From a virus, in the IMG/VR virus record IMGVR_UViG_3300044614_000397, positions 21,640 through 85,639 of that record: a stretch of DNA of 64,000 nt; one strand, given 5' to 3'. How positions within the stretch are numbered: the stretch's first letter is position 1; the number at the start of each line of letters is the position of its first letter. The notes below the pieces were generated by a model. The model ran no database searches, had not been told where the DNA came from, and worked only from the letters and a program-made list of their open reading frames with translations. The translations under genes were made by a program, and so were the position numbers. Positions 1,410-60,654 of the stretch are shown one piece after another.

Positions 1410-4400
1410 ATGCCAATTAGAGTAAAAACTGGAACCTCCACATGGTCAGCAATTAAAAAAATATATGCTAAAACCAGTACTGGTAGCGGTGGATGGAAAA
1501 CTGCAACCAAGGTGTTTGCAAAATTAACAACTGGCTGGATTCAAGTTTGGCCAGGAGATGCTCCATCACCTAGCTTAACAGATCCTATCGACATAAGAAC
1601 TGGTGGATACAATGGCACTAGGGCAACAAGTCCGCAATTTATTAATACAGTCTTATATGGAAACGATGGAACCATAAATGGAACACAGCCAATTACCGTA
1701 AATTCAAGAAGAATGAAAATTTCTGAGGATAATACTGGAAATACAGATAGATATCAACTAGAGACAACAGATATTTATAATCTAACAAACAACAGCGAAA
1801 CAGACATTGGATTCAAAAGATTTATGGCTGACGGATGGTGGTTATTCTATGAGCTTGTTGCTTCTAATACAGACTCTCCCTATCCTCCAGGAACAACATT
1901 GTATTCTCCACCAATTAAAATTATTAGACAGCAGCCAACCGTAACCTCTTCTACTCTTTCAGAAAATTATAGTTCTGGAAGCGCCCAGCTTACCTTAGAT
2001 TTTGTGATAAATGATTCTTGGTTTAAAGCAGCGGATCTGTCAAGGTCATATGTTAAATGGTGGCGCAATACATCAAAGTCCCCTGGTGGAACAGATTTAA
2101 AAACAACATACTTGGACTCCTTTGCTTTTCCTCAACTAATTGACGATACAAGAAGCGGATCACAGTATAGCGAATACAATGGAACTGGAACTACAATTAC
2201 TGGCACTGACTTTTATACTGAATCAGGTGGAATTGCAGCTGGTAACTATATAATTGCAGAGATAGTTCTTGTGAATTCATACACAGATCATCCAGGCAAC
2301 TCTCCAGTTAGTTCTTTTAAGTCTACTGGAAGTGTTGCAACAATTACATCTGTTACAGTTACCGATATAAATGGCAACAGTATCCTTGACAATCAATCTA
2401 GCCAAAGAGTAATTGCTGATGGAGTTATGGTGTGGACGGCAAACGTAATCGATGTTAGCCCCACTACACACTATCTTTTAGAGCCTAGATTTTATCGCAA
2501 TGACATAACAACAGAAAATAGATATCATAGATGGGATACTTTAGCTCAACAAAGCACATCAACTGATAGCGGAGGATTTCCTGTAGATTTAACACCATAT
2601 TCAATTACACCAAATGGCAGCGGTGGAGCAACTGTTGTCTGGAGGGAATGGATAGATGCTGGTCTATTTGGAATAGCTGGTCCAACTTACAATACTGGCG
2701 TAGCAAGATGGACATTAGAATTTAGATTAAGTGCAAGAGCTTCATCTACTTCATCTAACGCATCTGCAAGCTATTTTACTGGTAATATTCCAAGCATAGG
2801 GGCTTACCCATTTGGCATAGATCTTCCAGGAATGATTGATATTGCCCCATCTTCTGCAATGACTCTAAATGTTACATCTACAACTCCTAGCACAGGAAAT
2901 TCAATTACTTTTTCTGGATCAACAGTAGGCTATCCAACAACTACATATGCATCATATCCAAAAAGATACAAGATAGATTTTGGTGATAATACAGATAGCG
3001 GATGGAATTATTTTTCAACTGGAACTAGCAATCCAGGTTTTTCTGGTATAACAAAAACTTATAATACAGTTGGAACATATACTGCAACTCTGCTATGGGA
3101 ACCTCAAGGAGATCCTGCAAGAAGTACTAGGAATAGAGTAATCACTGTTTCTCCACCATTATCTGCACCAACTCCAACTGGAGTTGTATGGAATGGCACA
3201 TCTTTTGTTTTATCTTATACTGGTGGATCTGGCCCGTGGTTTCAATCTTGGTATAGAGTTGATAACACAACGTATCCTTCCGACGGCACTGGCTATGATC
3301 CTGGCAGTGAAACGCAAAATACTACTACTATAACATACACACCTGGTTTTACACCAACGCCTGGATCAACATATTATTTCTGGGTTAGATCTGCAAAGAC
3401 TTCTACGGCAAATACATCTGGATCTGATGTAAGCTCATACAGCACAACTAGAGTTCAAGTTACAATACCAGCAGTTGCAACCGCACCTACTTCAGTGACC
3501 GCATCAAATAATGGTAGCTCAACAACACTTACTGCATCTTGGTCTGGCGCAACAAACGCAGCATATTATAGAATTTATTGGAGCAGTAGCGCTACAGCGC
3601 CAACAAGCCCAGCTACAGTTTTTGATGAAGAAAAAACTGTGAATGGAAGCACTATAACAGCATCTTCTGGTTCTTGGGCATGGGGACCTGGAGACCCAGA
3701 TAAAAATGGAAACACTCCAGCATTTGGTGGCAACTACTACTTTTATGTATCTGCTTCCGCAAACGGTACAACATGGACTCCTTATGTTAGAACTTCTGGT
3801 ATAACTAATTTAGCTTTATTTCCTCCCACATCAGTTTCTGTAACTCCAGGCCCACAAGGTGGAGCAGTTACTGCTACATTCTCTGGAGGATCTGGACCAA
3901 ATTATCAGATGTATTGGATATCATCAGCAAATGCACCAACAGGACAGGTCACACCAGATGCAACTGGTTCTTCTAGTCCATTAACAGATTTTACTGGTCC
4001 AGGTGGTACAACAACAACCTATATGTATATTAGATCAGTTGTATCATTGGGTGACACATCTGCAGGAGCTTCAGCTACAGCAAGTGCTTGGAGTGCTGGA
4101 GTCCCATTTAATATGACCTCAACTGAAGTATCACAAAACAGCGCTCCAACAGTTAGAGCTACTAATACATTTTCAACATCTATTGTTAAGTATCTTGATA
4201 GCATTACTTGGACAACTGGTACATATACTAATGCTCAATCTATAACATCAGTATTGCTTTACTCTACAGTCACATCAAACTTGGTGGCCCCAGGAGGTAA
4301 CACGCTATCATCATTTAGAACAGCTAATCCATATGCAATAGTTCCTGCTGATCCCGCTGGAACCCCTTACGTGTTTGCAGTAAGGGATACAGTTGTCGGA

Positions 4401-5252
4401 ACAAATGGAACAACTTATTATTTTTATAGTGGTCAAATTACTTCTGCAAATGCTGATGCAGTAGCGTTTTCATATGGTACAGCAACGTCAGCTGCTGGAG
4501 GATGGACAGCTTCTGTAAACTCTGGAGCACAAACTGGCGCTACTTATTCATATGTGTCTGCAACTGCTGGGTCTGGATCGGTTAATTCTACAACTGGTGC
4601 AGTTACTGCCTCTGGATTAGGATCTAACGCACCTTCTACAATTACTGTCAATAAAGCTGTTAGCGGATACAATACGGCTTCAACAACAGCTAGTGGAATT
4701 TCTTCTACGGTTGCTAGCTTTAACCTTAACTACAACGCAAATGGCGGAACTGGAACCATGACTCCAACAACTGGAAACGGAAACGTTACCGTTAAGTCAA
4801 ATGGATTTTCAAGAACAAACTGTAACTTTGCAGGCTGGAATACAAATGCTGCAGGAACTGGAACTAACTACGCAGCAGGCAGCACATTTAACTTAACAGC
4901 AGAATCTACCTTATACGCAAGATGGACTGCTGTTGCAAACTCTGCTACTGCTCCTACTGGATTTAAATTTGATGGTAACAATTTGCCTACATCTGGAAGA
5001 AAGAGATGGTCTTGGACTGGGCCTGGAACTGTTACTGGAGGAACTGCTACTGGATTTAGAGTTCAAATAAGCTCAACAAGCTCTACCTCTGGATTTTCAA
5101 CAGTTGCAGAATCACCACTTTCAATTGGAGCAAGAAATTACAGCGTTGCTGTTAGCCCAGTAACATCCCCAAGATGGCTAAGAGTTGCAATGGTATATAC
5201 TGATGGACTAGGAAACACCGTAAACAGCCCTACATTTACGGCTGCATTATAA
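1410..5252 (+). CDS. Large tail fibre/adhesin with PKD, Fn3-like and InlB-type repeats
   Basis: This 1280-residue protein starts MPIRVKTGTSTWSAIKKIY, a start common to phage tail proteins that sit at the distal tip. A PKD-like segment (YKIDFGDNTDSGW) lies near residue 525. Several fibronectin-type-III-like beta domains follow (segments such as YYFWVRSAKTS and YYRIYWSSSATAP). Near residue 1105-1175 is a Listeria/Bacteroides-type repeat (YNANGGTGTM ... CNFAGWNTNAAGTGTNY ... LYARW), as in internalin B-repeats. These domains bind surfaces or sugars in other proteins, so a receptor-binding or adhesion role is likely. It lies 8 bases after the preceding tail gene, in the same operon. Confidence 0.8.
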   Translation: MPIRVKTGTSTWSAIKKIYAKTSTGSGGWKTATKVFAKLTTGWIQVWPGDAPSPSLTDPIDIRTGGYNGTRATSPQFINTVLYGNDGTINGTQPITVNSRRMKISEDNTGNTDRYQLETTDIYNLTNNSETDIGFKRFMADGWWLFYELVASNTDSPYPPGTTLYSPPIKIIRQQPTVTSSTLSENYSSGSAQLTLDFVINDSWFKAADLSRSYVKWWRNTSKSPGGTDLKTTYLDSFAFPQLIDDTRSGSQYSEYNGTGTTITGTDFYTESGGIAAGNYIIAEIVLVNSYTDHPGNSPVSSFKSTGSVATITSVTVTDINGNSILDNQSSQRVIADGVMVWTANVIDVSPTTHYLLEPRFYRNDITTENRYHRWDTLAQQSTSTDSGGFPVDLTPYSITPNGSGGATVVWREWIDAGLFGIAGPTYNTGVARWTLEFRLSARASSTSSNASASYFTGNIPSIGAYPFGIDLPGMIDIAPSSAMTLNVTSTTPSTGNSITFSGSTVGYPTTTYASYPKRYKIDFGDNTDSGWNYFSTGTSNPGFSGITKTYNTVGTYTATLLWEPQGDPARSTRNRVITVSPPLSAPTPTGVVWNGTSFVLSYTGGSGPWFQSWYRVDNTTYPSDGTGYDPGSETQNTTTITYTPGFTPTPGSTYYFWVRSAKTSTANTSGSDVSSYSTTRVQVTIPAVATAPTSVTASNNGSSTTLTASWSGATNAAYYRIYWSSSATAPTSPATVFDEEKTVNGSTITASSGSWAWGPGDPDKNGNTPAFGGNYYFYVSASANGTTWTPYVRTSGITNLALFPPTSVSVTPGPQGGAVTATFSGGSGPNYQMYWISSANAPTGQVTPDATGSSSPLTDFTGPGGTTTTYMYIRSVVSLGDTSAGASATASAWSAGVPFNMTSTEVSQNSAPTVRATNTFSTSIVKYLDSITWTTGTYTNAQSITSVLLYSTVTSNLVAPGGNTLSSFRTANPYAIVPADPAGTPYVFAVRDTVVGTNGTTYYFYSGQITSANADAVAFSYGTATSAAGGWTASVNSGAQTGATYSYVSATAGSGSVNSTTGAVTASGLGSNAPSTITVNKAVSGYNTASTTASGISSTVASFNLNYNANGGTGTMTPTTGNGNVTVKSNGFSRTNCNFAGWNTNAAGTGTNYAAGSTFNLTAESTLYARWTAVANSATAPTGFKFDGNNLPTSGRKRWSWTGPGTVTGGTATGFRVQISSTSSTSGFSTVAESPLSIGARNYSVAVSPVTSPRWLRVAMVYTDGLGNTVNSPTFTAAL

Positions 5253-57734: not shown

Positions 57735-57904
57735 TATTTAGACTCCTTATCTATACAGTTGATACAGTAGCAAGCCTTGCTACTTAGTAAATCACGCAAT
57801 AGAGCCTTGCGTGTGTAGGCATTTAGTCCATATGAGGACTTTACTCCACCATTGTGGAAATCGTGCACGATTGTGCTATACAGAGTTTCTGTTAGTTGAG
57901 TCAT
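57734..57904 (-). CDS. Small Cys-containing protein, 56 residues
   Basis: MTQLTETLYSTIVHDFHNGG and ACYCINCIDKES; a helix followed by a CxC-x2-C cluster. First gene of the minus arm. Confidence 0.58.
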   Translation of the reverse strand: MTQLTETLYSTIVHDFHNGGVKSSYGLNAYTRKALLRDLLSSKACYCINCIDKESK

Positions 57905-57953
57905 TATCTGACTCCTTTCTTTAGTAAGACTTTCTTACTTTCTTTATACTATA

Positions 57954-57976
57954 AGCCTAACACGGGGCACTGACAT
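57954..57976 (-). promoter_or_regulatory. TGTCAG-class promoter (ATGTCAG-N10-TAGGCT)
   Basis: Box at 57976-57970, -10 position at 57959-57954 is a poor TAGGCT, with TATAGT 0 bases further on. Confidence 0.6.
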
Positions 57977-58013
57977 TTAGGGGGGTTACTGGCAAGTATT
58001 CTCAAACTATTTT

Positions 58014-58029
58014 TGTGATTAGCATCACA
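58014..58029 (-). promoter_or_regulatory. CRP/GlxR-like palindrome TGTGATTAGCATCACA
   Basis: Perfect TGTGA-N6-TCACA, centred 62.5 bases before the -10 at 57959, in the divergent region. Confidence 0.68.
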
Positions 58030-58145
58030 TTCACGCTCAGAGTTAATAATCTATGGGCGCACTATATAGACAAATCGGACATTCTAAAACCCTGGATCAT
58101 ACAAATAAAATCTATATTAACATTTTCATAAATCTGAAATACTAG

Positions 58146-58175
58146 TTGACTAGAATATTATCTGTATGATATAAT
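58146..58175 (+). promoter_or_regulatory. Promoter TTGACT-N18-TATAAT of the ncRNA
   Basis: TTGACT (58146-58151), TATAAT (58170-58175) with TGA extension. The palindrome-like CTAGTTGACTAG (58142-58153) covers the -35. Confidence 0.78.
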
Positions 58176-58181
58176 TTATTT

Positions 58182-58395
58182 AACAGCAAATCGACGGACG
58201 AGCTGGAGTATGGCAGAAATTCTCCTTGTCAACAAGGCGGAATTGCATAAGAGGCCTTAACAGGTAGGATTAGTGATCTAAACTCTTAGTAGAACTAAAG
58301 CGGATCTAATTGAGCTGTTGACTTGTTCTTAGTGGTAAAAGGCAATCCACTTACTCACTAAAAAATCTCAAGGAGAAATCTTTGGGATTTTTTGC
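58182..58395 (+). ncRNA. Structured non-coding RNA with own promoter and terminator
   Basis: About 214 bases between a consensus promoter and a strong terminator. A long hairpin (about 58213-58250) has CCTTGT/ACAAGG at its tip and GC...GC at its base. TAGTG/CACTA with inner GTGG/CCAC lies near 58331-58361. It also encodes a 16-codon frame (MAEILLVNKAELHKRP) with GGAG just before the ATG. It could be a regulatory RNA or a small-peptide RNA. I cannot match it to a known family. Confidence 0.65.
58364..58394 (+). terminator. Rho-independent terminator of the ncRNA
   Basis: AAATCTCAAGG pairs with CTTTGGGATTT (two G-T pairs, six-base loop), followed by T residues. Confidence 0.8.
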
Positions 58396-58618
58396 TTTAA
58401 CTCTTGACCTAGCAATTTTCATCATGTTATACTTAAGGCTGGTTTGTGGGGGCTTACACTGAAACTCATAATGACGGAAATGTGTAGCTTCTCTATCCTA
58501 CAAAATTGATTTTAAATTTTGGGGGGTAGGGGGGCTTTCCTAAAATCTAAAAATCTGGAAATGTAATTAAAAGATTATATATATTATATATATCTTAGTT
58601 GACTAGAATATAGAGAAT
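58396..58618. other. Non-coding gap
   Basis: I see no gene on either strand. It holds a G run (about 58519-58533) and an alternating AT stretch (about 58575-58593). TTAGTTGACTAG (58595-58606) is a near-copy of the palindromes at 22173 and 48811. Confidence 0.5.
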
Positions 58619-58705
58619 ATGACAGTAAATAAAGTAAAGCGATATGTTAATTACTTTGCTTGGATTTGTATGATCTCATGGATAGTATACCTTGGCATCC
58701 AATAG
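58619..58705 (+). CDS. Possible membrane microprotein, 28 residues
   Basis: YFAWICMISWIVYLGIQ forms one hydrophobic helix after a basic start. TAGAAT lies 9 bases before the ATG. No Shine-Dalgarno, so evidence is modest. Confidence 0.35.
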   Translation: MTVNKVKRYVNYFAWICMISWIVYLGIQ

Positions 58706-58814
58706 AATTGTTAAATGTGATAGTTGTGGGCGGGAAATCGAAGTAAGATCTGGATTTGCCCATATGACACTGAATAACCACTATAGGGCATGTAAAGACG
58801 GTGAATCAAAATAG
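58692..58814 (+). CDS. Possible zinc-finger microprotein, 40 residues (TTG start)
   Basis: VKCDSCGREIEVRSGFAHM then NNHYRACKDG gives C-x2-C...H...H-x3-C, like a short zinc finger. TTG start without Shine-Dalgarno; overlaps the frame before it. Confidence 0.45.
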   Translation: MASNRIVKCDSCGREIEVRSGFAHMTLNNHYRACKDGESK

Positions 58815-59395
58815 AGAACATAGCTTTAATCGGAGACTCTCACGCTAATGGCATAGCTAAAGCATTTGAAGTATTTTATAGCAATAATCAAAAGATAGTT
58901 CATATTAAAGATCTATATGCATTTCCTGGAAAGCACTGCTATAACGTAGATTATTCAAATGTCGACATACCTATAGGTAGTAAAATACTACTACACTTTG
59001 GCGAAATTGATATTCGCAAGAGTTTACCTAAATACAAGAATACTGAAGATACTGTTAAGAGATACATTGATAAATCAGTCGACTACTTTAAAGACTATGA
59101 TCTATTCTTCATAAAGCCTATACCACAAGCTGAAGATGACCTCACTTGGGAGTTTAAGCCTGGAGCTACTTTAGGGGAAAATAGAAGAGCATACTATTTG
59201 GAGGAAAGGCTAGAGGAGCAAAATATTTTTTATTCGACACTAGACAAATATGCTCCTAATGTTATAGATACTCCATCTGCAATTAATACGAATATATTGA
59301 AATCAGAGAATACAGATGATGGATGTCACTTAAATCTAGCAAACTCTTTGAAGCTTATAGAATATATAGATATTGCAATCAATTCAGGGGTATAG
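58811..59395 (+). CDS. SGNH/GDSL hydrolase-like protein without AUG/GUG/UUG start
   Basis: The open frame begins after a stop at 58802 with ATC-AAA-ATA-GAG-AAC-ATA, and its first ATG-type codon is far inside. The protein reads IENIALIGDSHANGIAKAF at once (block I GDSH with the catalytic Ser) and ends DDGCHLNLANS (block V D-x2-H), so the N-terminus looks complete. The likely start is ATA 58811, 7 bases after GGTGA. It would hydrolyse esters or deacetylate a sugar. Confidence 0.65.
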   Translation: MENIALIGDSHANGIAKAFEVFYSNNQKIVHIKDLYAFPGKHCYNVDYSNVDIPIGSKILLHFGEIDIRKSLPKYKNTEDTVKRYIDKSVDYFKDYDLFFIKPIPQAEDDLTWEFKPGATLGENRRAYYLEERLEEQNIFYSTLDKYAPNVIDTPSAINTNILKSENTDDGCHLNLANSLKLIEYIDIAINSGV

Positions 59396-59407: not shown

Positions 59408-59950
59408 ATGGATGACCTTGTAAAAGAATTTAAAGACGCTATTGAAGATCCTAACGTAAATCACAAGATATTTAAGAAAGCTTTTGTGGTAACTCCTACG
59501 TGGGATGATATGCAAGGTTATATCGAATTTTCAAGAACTGCAGGAAACTATAGATCAGATTATGAAGGATTCTATATTCTTCACTGCAAGGAACACCATG
59601 ACATATCCCATATGAAGGGGACTAAAGAGTTTTTAGAGTTCATGGGTAAGGTGTATGATAAAGTCCCAGCATCTCAGGATTCATTTACATTTGTTATATC
59701 TGAGAACTATAGAGCAGTTACAGATTTAAGTGGAATTAAAAGACATACAGATACAACAGATACAATTCACTGGACTACAGTTGGTGCAACCATATGGACA
59801 CTATATCAGGATGGTCAAGCTCACGAATATTTAGTTGAACCAGGAGATATTGTATTTATTAAATATGGCACAGAGCATGGAGTAGAATCTTTAACTCCTA
59901 GAGCAGGTATTGTTTATTCTGGTGGAGAATATCATCCTAATAAAGACTAA
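59408..59950 (+). CDS. 2OG-oxygenase/cupin-like protein
   Basis: In 180 residues, IKRHTDTTDTIHW near 117 (H-x-D metal pair) and EYLVEPGDIVFIKYGTEHGV near 140 (distal His) with PRAGIVYS (Arg) give the facial-triad order of Fe(II) oxygenases on a cupin barrel. The substrate is unknown. Predicted leaderless. Confidence 0.7.
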   Translation: MDDLVKEFKDAIEDPNVNHKIFKKAFVVTPTWDDMQGYIEFSRTAGNYRSDYEGFYILHCKEHHDISHMKGTKEFLEFMGKVYDKVPASQDSFTFVISENYRAVTDLSGIKRHTDTTDTIHWTTVGATIWTLYQDGQAHEYLVEPGDIVFIKYGTEHGVESLTPRAGIVYSGGEYHPNKD

Positions 59951-60422: not shown

Positions 60423-60495
60423 TGGACCATAGCTCAGCTGGCAGAGCGTAGAGCTGTTAACTCTAATGTCCCAGGTTCGAGCCCTGGTGGTCCAG
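60423..60495 (+). tRNA. tRNA-Asn (GTT)
   Basis: Cloverleaf: acceptor TGGACCA/TGGTCCA, D arm GCTC...GAGC, anticodon loop with GTT, T arm GGTTCGAGCCC. No CCA encoded. Confidence 0.93.
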
Positions 60496-60499
60496 CTTA

Positions 60500-60573
60500 G
60501 CACCAGTAGCCAAGTTGGTTAAGGCCCCGAACTCATAATTCGGCTATCGTAGGTTCAAGTCCTGCCTGGTGTA
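60500..60573 (+). tRNA. tRNA with anticodon CAT (Met or Ile2)
   Basis: Acceptor GCACCAG/CTGGTGT (one G-T), anticodon stem CCGAA/TTCGG, loop CTCATAA, T arm GGTTCAAGTCC. It lacks the initiator C1:A72 mismatch, so elongator Met or lysidine-modified Ile. Confidence 0.88.
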
Positions 60574-60577
60574 CTAA

Positions 60578-60649
60578 ATCTCTATAGCTCAGCGGAAGAG
60601 CAACAGGTTTCTACCCTGTGTGTCGGGAGTTCGAATCTCTCTAGGGATA
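60578..60649 (+). tRNA. tRNA-Arg (TCT)
   Basis: Acceptor ATCTCTA/TAGGGAT, anticodon stem ACAGG/CCTGT, loop TTTCTAC with TCT. It reads AGA, the arginine codon most used in this AT-rich genome. Confidence 0.9.
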
Positions 60650-60654
60650 CTTAA

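Follow-up and report, generated by a model that had tools for sequence, protein, structure and literature searches.

A divergent manA-family RNA as a candidate stand-alone non-coding RNA gene in an actinophage-type virus

manA RNA (RF01745) was described by Weinberg et al. 2010 as a riboswitch candidate (PMC2864571), in a description where its pseudoknot carries a question mark, and it has been an orphan riboswitch candidate since. A manA-family RNA has also been recorded on a mobile element in the cyanophage S-CREM1 (OP535465, PMC9964418), where it is wedged between tRNA-Leu and tRNA-Asn, and the Bifidobacterium megaplasmid pMP7017 carries manA, which can adjoin tRNAs (PMC10832533). Two further groups of phage RNAs invite comparison: T4 rnaC and rnaD (the species 1 and 2 stable RNAs, of 139 and 119 nt), annotated as small stable RNAs beside tRNA-Arg, and GOLLD and ROOL, phage non-coding RNAs often located near tRNA islands, for which a function is not assigned (PMC12286853).

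The locus considered here lies in a window of 64,000 nucleotides (bases 21640-85639 of an 85,639-base virus record); the virus is judged to be actinophage-like, since Streptomyces phages of the BillNye group have a DNA polymerase III alpha with 58% identity to its own. On its plus strand, a structured RNA gene of about 180 nt at 58182-58361 is, by alignment and predicted fold, a divergent homologue of manA RNA. It resembles RF01745 in its full-length alignment, helix order, GGUA...AAUCC hairpin, UGNCNGAA motif and equivalent pseudoknot; it differs in scoring below the Rfam cut-off, in lying outside a 5' UTR with a terminator of its own, in having two UUAGCG-type hairpins in place of the cyanophage GUGGUG arm, and in its actinophage setting, as against a cyanophage or gamma-proteobacterial one. 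Like the S-CREM1 copy it is a manA-family RNA on a mobile element, but the S-CREM1 and pMP7017 copies are described as cis-regulatory, whereas in the window the RNA stands alone, 2 kb away from a tRNA array. The likeness to T4 rnaC and rnaD, small stable RNAs that border a phage tRNA cluster, is a positional analogy only, as those RNAs are shorter and T4 yields no covariance-model match; GOLLD and ROOL occupy a comparable position near tRNAs, but are much larger, with unrelated folds, and the window RNA has no Rfam match to them.

The locus and its transcription signals

A sequence-only reading of the window had placed a gene-free, structured RNA, starting at 58182 and enclosed by a strong promoter and terminator, at the junction of two transcription arms, and each of these points was borne out. 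The predicted features, all on the plus strand, are as follows.

58146-58175, plus: promoter, TTGACT (58146-58151), 18-nt spacer and TATAAT (58170-58175) with TG ahead of the box (extended -10); 11 of 12 consensus matches
58182-58361, plus: divergent manA-family RNA; RF01745, 37.9 bits, E=1.8e-8; model R1, 129.8 bits, E=3e-42
58184-58205, plus: P1, 5' hairpin, CAGC (58184-58187) with GCUG (58202-58205), apical motif GACGG
58206-58210, plus: P2 5' strand GAGUA, containing part of the GGAG noted earlier, pairing with 58352-58356
58210-58260, plus: 16-codon frame, judged not a gene from comparison of frames across the family
58213-58246, plus: P3 arm, GCA (58213-58215) with UGC (58244-58246), inner hairpin CCUU/AAGG
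58228-58232, plus: pseudoknot 5' strand GUCAA in the P3 loop, pairing with 58318-58322
58291-58329, plus: P7 arm, AGAAC (58291-58295) with GUUCU (58325-58329)
58318-58322, plus: pseudoknot 3' strand UUGAC
58331-58351, plus: P8 hairpin, AGUGG(UAAAAGGCAAU)CCACU, the most conserved part of the family
58352-58356, plus: P2 3' strand UACUC
58359-58395, plus: intrinsic terminator, 16-bp hairpin (58359-58394) followed by a T-rich tail; -16.5 kcal/mol
60423-60650, plus: tRNA-Asn/Met/Arg array, 2.1 kb downstream of the RNA (context)

No open reading frame of at least 40 codons is present on either strand from 57904 to 58647, and the gene arms diverge around the locus, minus-strand genes lying on its left and plus-strand genes on its right. 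The first open reading frame of 35 or more codons begins 330 nt past the RNA and is preceded by a separate copy of the promoter motif, at 58597; plus-strand genes run from 58692 on. So far as can be judged from sequence, the RNA would not belong to a longer coding transcript, an alternative that the earlier reading had itself raised.

The RNA promoter opens with the element AGTTGACTAGAATAT, as do promoters of relatives. A58182, which stands at the foot of helix P1, is the predicted +1, because the spacing from the box is the same 6 nt as in leaderless genes; seven genes in relatives (L005, L008, L009, three in L010, L011), and likewise the window gene at 59408, have a TATAAT-type box followed after exactly 6 nt by ATG, and are apparently leaderless. 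The element itself is found at 58144-58158 and 58597-58611 of the window and in L005 and L008-L011, ahead of small cargo genes; TTGACT and the TATAAT box lie at variable distances from each other (6, 11, 17 or 18), and most genes begin 6 bases past the box.

The terminator hairpin was not listed by a consensus terminator scanner, probably because its stem is rich in A-U and G-U pairs. The region 58182-58402 folds at -61.8 kcal/mol, against -48.6 (sd 4.5) for shuffled sequences (z=-2.9; 2 of 200 shuffles were equally good), and the reverse strand of the same region gave z=-2.0.

Further downstream, an SGNH-like reading frame with a GDSH motif (58811-59395, plus strand) is without an ATG, GTG or TTG start. 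Its start is ATG in the relatives L009 and L010 and ATA in the window and L008; the ATA overlaps the stop codon of an upstream 40-codon frame (AUAG or AUAA), which suggests a rare AUA start with translational coupling.

Copies of the RNA are identical or near-identical in L002-L004 and L020. It is absent from the closest relatives, L005 and L007-L011, throughout their records, which may be fragments; in these relatives a promoter of the same kind precedes other small cargo. Since the closest relatives do without it and hold other cargo in the slot, the RNA is, on this comparison, a movable and dispensable cassette in the window's lineage. In L007 and L008 the manA slot (3880-4005 in L008) is occupied by a frame of 25 codons, MNLTQATIIFGPIIFLLIAFRKDIF, which probably encodes a small membrane peptide.

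Family membership and conserved fold

The earlier reading could not match the RNA to a known family, but the covariance-model search that it proposed does so. At the gathering threshold Rfam reported only tRNAs in the window, but with an E-value threshold 58185-58361 aligned to the whole of the manA model (positions 1-192), the match for the genome having an E of 1e-9. Its score does not reach the RF01745 gathering cut-off of 55.2 bits, and for this reason the RNA was missed by annotation. Among the 26 actinophage-type RNAs in our alignment, 15 lie above this cut-off and 11 below, so the cut-off explains why annotation misses those 11.

To collect relatives, we searched 2.9 million viral contigs with two patterns describing the conserved 3' hairpin, ignoring context; most of the sequences obtained were confirmed by RF01745. 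BLAST with these relatives revealed unannotated copies in cultured phages: P1201, Darwin, Zion, C3PO and others of Corynebacterium, together with the Rhodococcus phage Francesca. A covariance model, R1, built from 25 related phage RNAs with the window and its near-identical copy L020 left out, scored the window RNA as listed above, the next-best match in the window reaching 9 bits. R1 also recovered cyanophage manA RNAs at 30-44 bits; as one model finds both, the actinophage and cyanophage branches are, by these scores, one family.

RF01745 had no match at E<=1 in 14 control genomes; BillNye and Lululemon, the Streptomyces phages nearest in DNA polymerase, lack the RNA, as do S-PM2, phi16 and T4; BLASTN of the region against named phages gave chance-level matches only, and BLAST of plasmids with two manA sequences gave none. 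Bacterial genomes yielded one real manA, on the contig L066 described below, and seven other pattern matches that RF01745 did not confirm. Within the window, sub-threshold rli38 and trpB matches at 58269-58399 were rejected as chance (E 3-5), and neither ARAGORN nor Rfam matched the RNA as a tmRNA or tRNA.

Two database records are worth mention. The 188-kb contig L066 (NZ_RMVE01000006.1), filed under Nonlabens xiamenensis, carries manA (141.7 bits) and a PhotoRC-II RNA, and probably represents a T4-like cyanophage that contaminates a Bacteroidota assembly. In P-SSM4 (NC_006884.2), PSSM4_169.1 (164884-165057), annotated as a hypothetical protein, overlaps the manA RNA at 164829-165014; the annotation is probably spurious.

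The nearest relatives by neighbour protein have either identical RNA copies or no RNA, and were of no use for covariation; the fold was examined in 26 non-redundant sequences, 61-77% identical to the window. Across 38 pairs, 93.5% of cells are paired, against 74% in shuffled and 36-46% in slid alignments, and both sides change in 31 of the 38. The stems are thus conserved with compensatory changes in related phages, a comparison that the earlier reading had proposed and that goes in its favour. The window RNA shares the consensus sequence and helices of RF01745 over the full model, as expected of common descent, together with a long-range closing helix and a pseudoknot; P2 (97.7% of cells paired) and the five-pair pseudoknot (96.8%) each covary at four of five pairs. 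By inspection, an equivalent pseudoknot pair is found in cyanophages (GGCA/UGCC in L047, GGAA/UUCC in L025, GGUC/GACC in S-CREM1). P7 of the window has an A-U pair where the 25 others have G-C, and there is a further A-U at the foot of P8; these window-specific compensations fall in alignment columns 125/168 and 172/192.

Genomic settings of manA-family RNAs

The surroundings of 33 non-redundant manA RNAs were surveyed. Fifteen have a same-strand tRNA within 10 nt, against 0.48 expected (none of 100,000 simulations reached 15), and in seven of these a tRNA lies on both sides; in seven further RNAs a tRNA follows 19-70 nt downstream. About two thirds of the members are embedded in tRNA arrays or adjoin them, and have tRNAs behind them in place of open reading frames. 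In Darwin, the RNA (2885-3073) lies between tRNA-Trp (2811-2884) and tRNA-Ser (from 3074) with no spare base, and in Darwin, C3PO, Francesca, P1201 and S-CREM1 it fills the gap between tRNAs to 0-3 nt. The nearest same-strand tRNA to the window RNA is 2061 nt downstream, which places this copy outside a tRNA array.

Six of the 33 are solo units of promoter, RNA and terminator (the window, L079, L078, L080, L062 and the cyanophage L024), whose downstream genes differ, with none in common; L095 has a promoter and terminator, followed by a tRNA. In the window, L079, L078, L080, L062 and L095 the promoter box ends 6-13 nt upstream of the RNA and the terminator starts directly at the RNA 3' end, the terminator sequences being unrelated. 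The ends of the RNA coincide with transcription signals in the window and with tRNA borders elsewhere.

The remaining setting is that of five RNAs, all from cyanophages, which precede protein genes without a terminator and look like mRNA leaders; the genes, a gp32-type ssDNA-binding protein and a transaldolase, were identified by reading the sequence, not by family search, and L061 runs off its contig. In P-SSM2 the manA RNA lies ahead of purL. Such protein-gene-leading cases in cyanophages are the basis of the published cis-regulatory label.

The manA family itself and its nearness to tRNAs were already known (PMC10832533; S-CREM1 record). Within the accessible literature, which excepts the 2010 supplements and subscription journals, so that part may be known, the actinophage branch below the Rfam cut-off is new, as are the solo promoter-RNA-terminator form, the measured enrichment in tRNA arrays and the strong covariation of the pseudoknot.

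Competing explanations for the window RNA

We consider it likely that 58182-58395 is a stand-alone gene for a trans-acting non-coding RNA of an actinophage-type virus, not a riboswitch, and the window RNA is best read as a free-standing form of an RNA that phages usually carry within tRNA arrays; the earlier proposal of a discrete small phage RNA, flanked by a promoter and a terminator of its own, is to that extent supported by the predicted signals. RNA polymerase would start at about A58182, copy the pseudoknotted manA-family RNA of about 180 nt and stop at the terminator, which begins directly after the last helix, so that the RNA would be released in vivo as a discrete molecule acting in trans. 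In the array form, processing of the flanking tRNAs would cut the RNA out with nearly the same ends, by RNase P on its 3' side and by tRNA 3' processing on its 5' side. A role during infection may be tied to the tRNA or translation machinery; the simplest guess that its position allows is a function linked to tRNAs or the ribosome.

As RF01745 is classed Cis-reg and was proposed as a riboswitch candidate, the RNA might instead be a riboswitch or attenuator whose terminator decides transcription of the plus-strand genes from 58692 on. The terminator does stand directly downstream, as behind the aptamer of a transcriptional riboswitch, plus-strand genes do come after the RNA, and cyanophage members precede gp32, talC or purL. 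We regard this as rather unlikely, since the window RNA is not in the 5' UTR of a metabolic gene, having its own terminator and a distant next frame served by a separate promoter motif, since the solo units share no downstream gene, and since array members have tRNAs behind them. In addition, the terminator 5' arms pair with the RNA body no better than shuffled sequences (z -0.2 to +0.9), and there is thus no sign of a switch or antiterminator. The accepted description of manA as a gene-control element is probably too narrow. We tentatively suggest, at somewhat less than even confidence, that the whole family is misclassified and comprises trans-acting phage RNAs of tRNA arrays that act on the translation or tRNA machinery, with leaders the exception. 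The solo actinophage units point to this most clearly, because their promoter and terminator fall exactly where the RNA of this family begins and ends.

Counter-defence is a role often discussed for phage tRNA clusters, and many array members have two adjacent hairpins that share a UUAGCG-type loop, as might be expected of a decoy or sponge against a host factor (an anticodon nuclease or RNA-binding regulator, for example) in place of a translation helper; we think this improbable, as the loops are not constant, reading UUAACA and UAGUG in the window and GUGGUG in cyanophages. The low RF01745 score and the absence of the RNA from close relatives would also fit a non-functional relic of a tRNA-array RNA, but intact helices, the window-specific A-U compensations, an intact promoter and terminator and the copies retained in L002-L004 and L020 make a relic very improbable. 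Translation of a small protein is the least credible reading of all, and we give it almost no weight: the GGAG directly ahead of the ATG at 58210 and the 16-codon frame pointed out earlier are indeed present, but their coding interpretation fails, because the GGAG sits in P2, a covarying long-range helix, and relatives either lack the frame or have it altered. The ATG is absent at this position in 12 of 33 family members, the others have frames of 3, 10, 12, 16, 17 or 22 codons with no common sequence (several merely MAE-stop), and substitutions in the RNA follow pairing.

With manA found in actinophages as promoter-RNA-terminator units and as tRNA-array inserts, the question shifts from which ligand it binds to which partner it has. 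Cultured, tractable phages carry the RNA (P1201 on Corynebacterium glutamicum; Darwin, Zion and C3PO), making deletion and pull-down possible.

Several observations concern the arrays themselves. In L039, the segment directly after manA (5046-5150) resembles the tRNA-like domain of tmRNA, with no evident tag-coding part, and drew no Rfam or ARAGORN call. The tRNA genes of Darwin and Zion (NC_042086.1, NC_042087.1) are annotated on the strand opposite to that given by Rfam and ARAGORN, which C3PO uses, and the same is true of tRNA-Gly in P1201 (NC_009816.1). The tRNA cluster that holds manA in S-CREM1 (L063) also contains wcaG (Cis-reg) and abiF (sRNA), at 1246-1343 and 2032-2068, and wcaG may deserve the same re-examination as manA.
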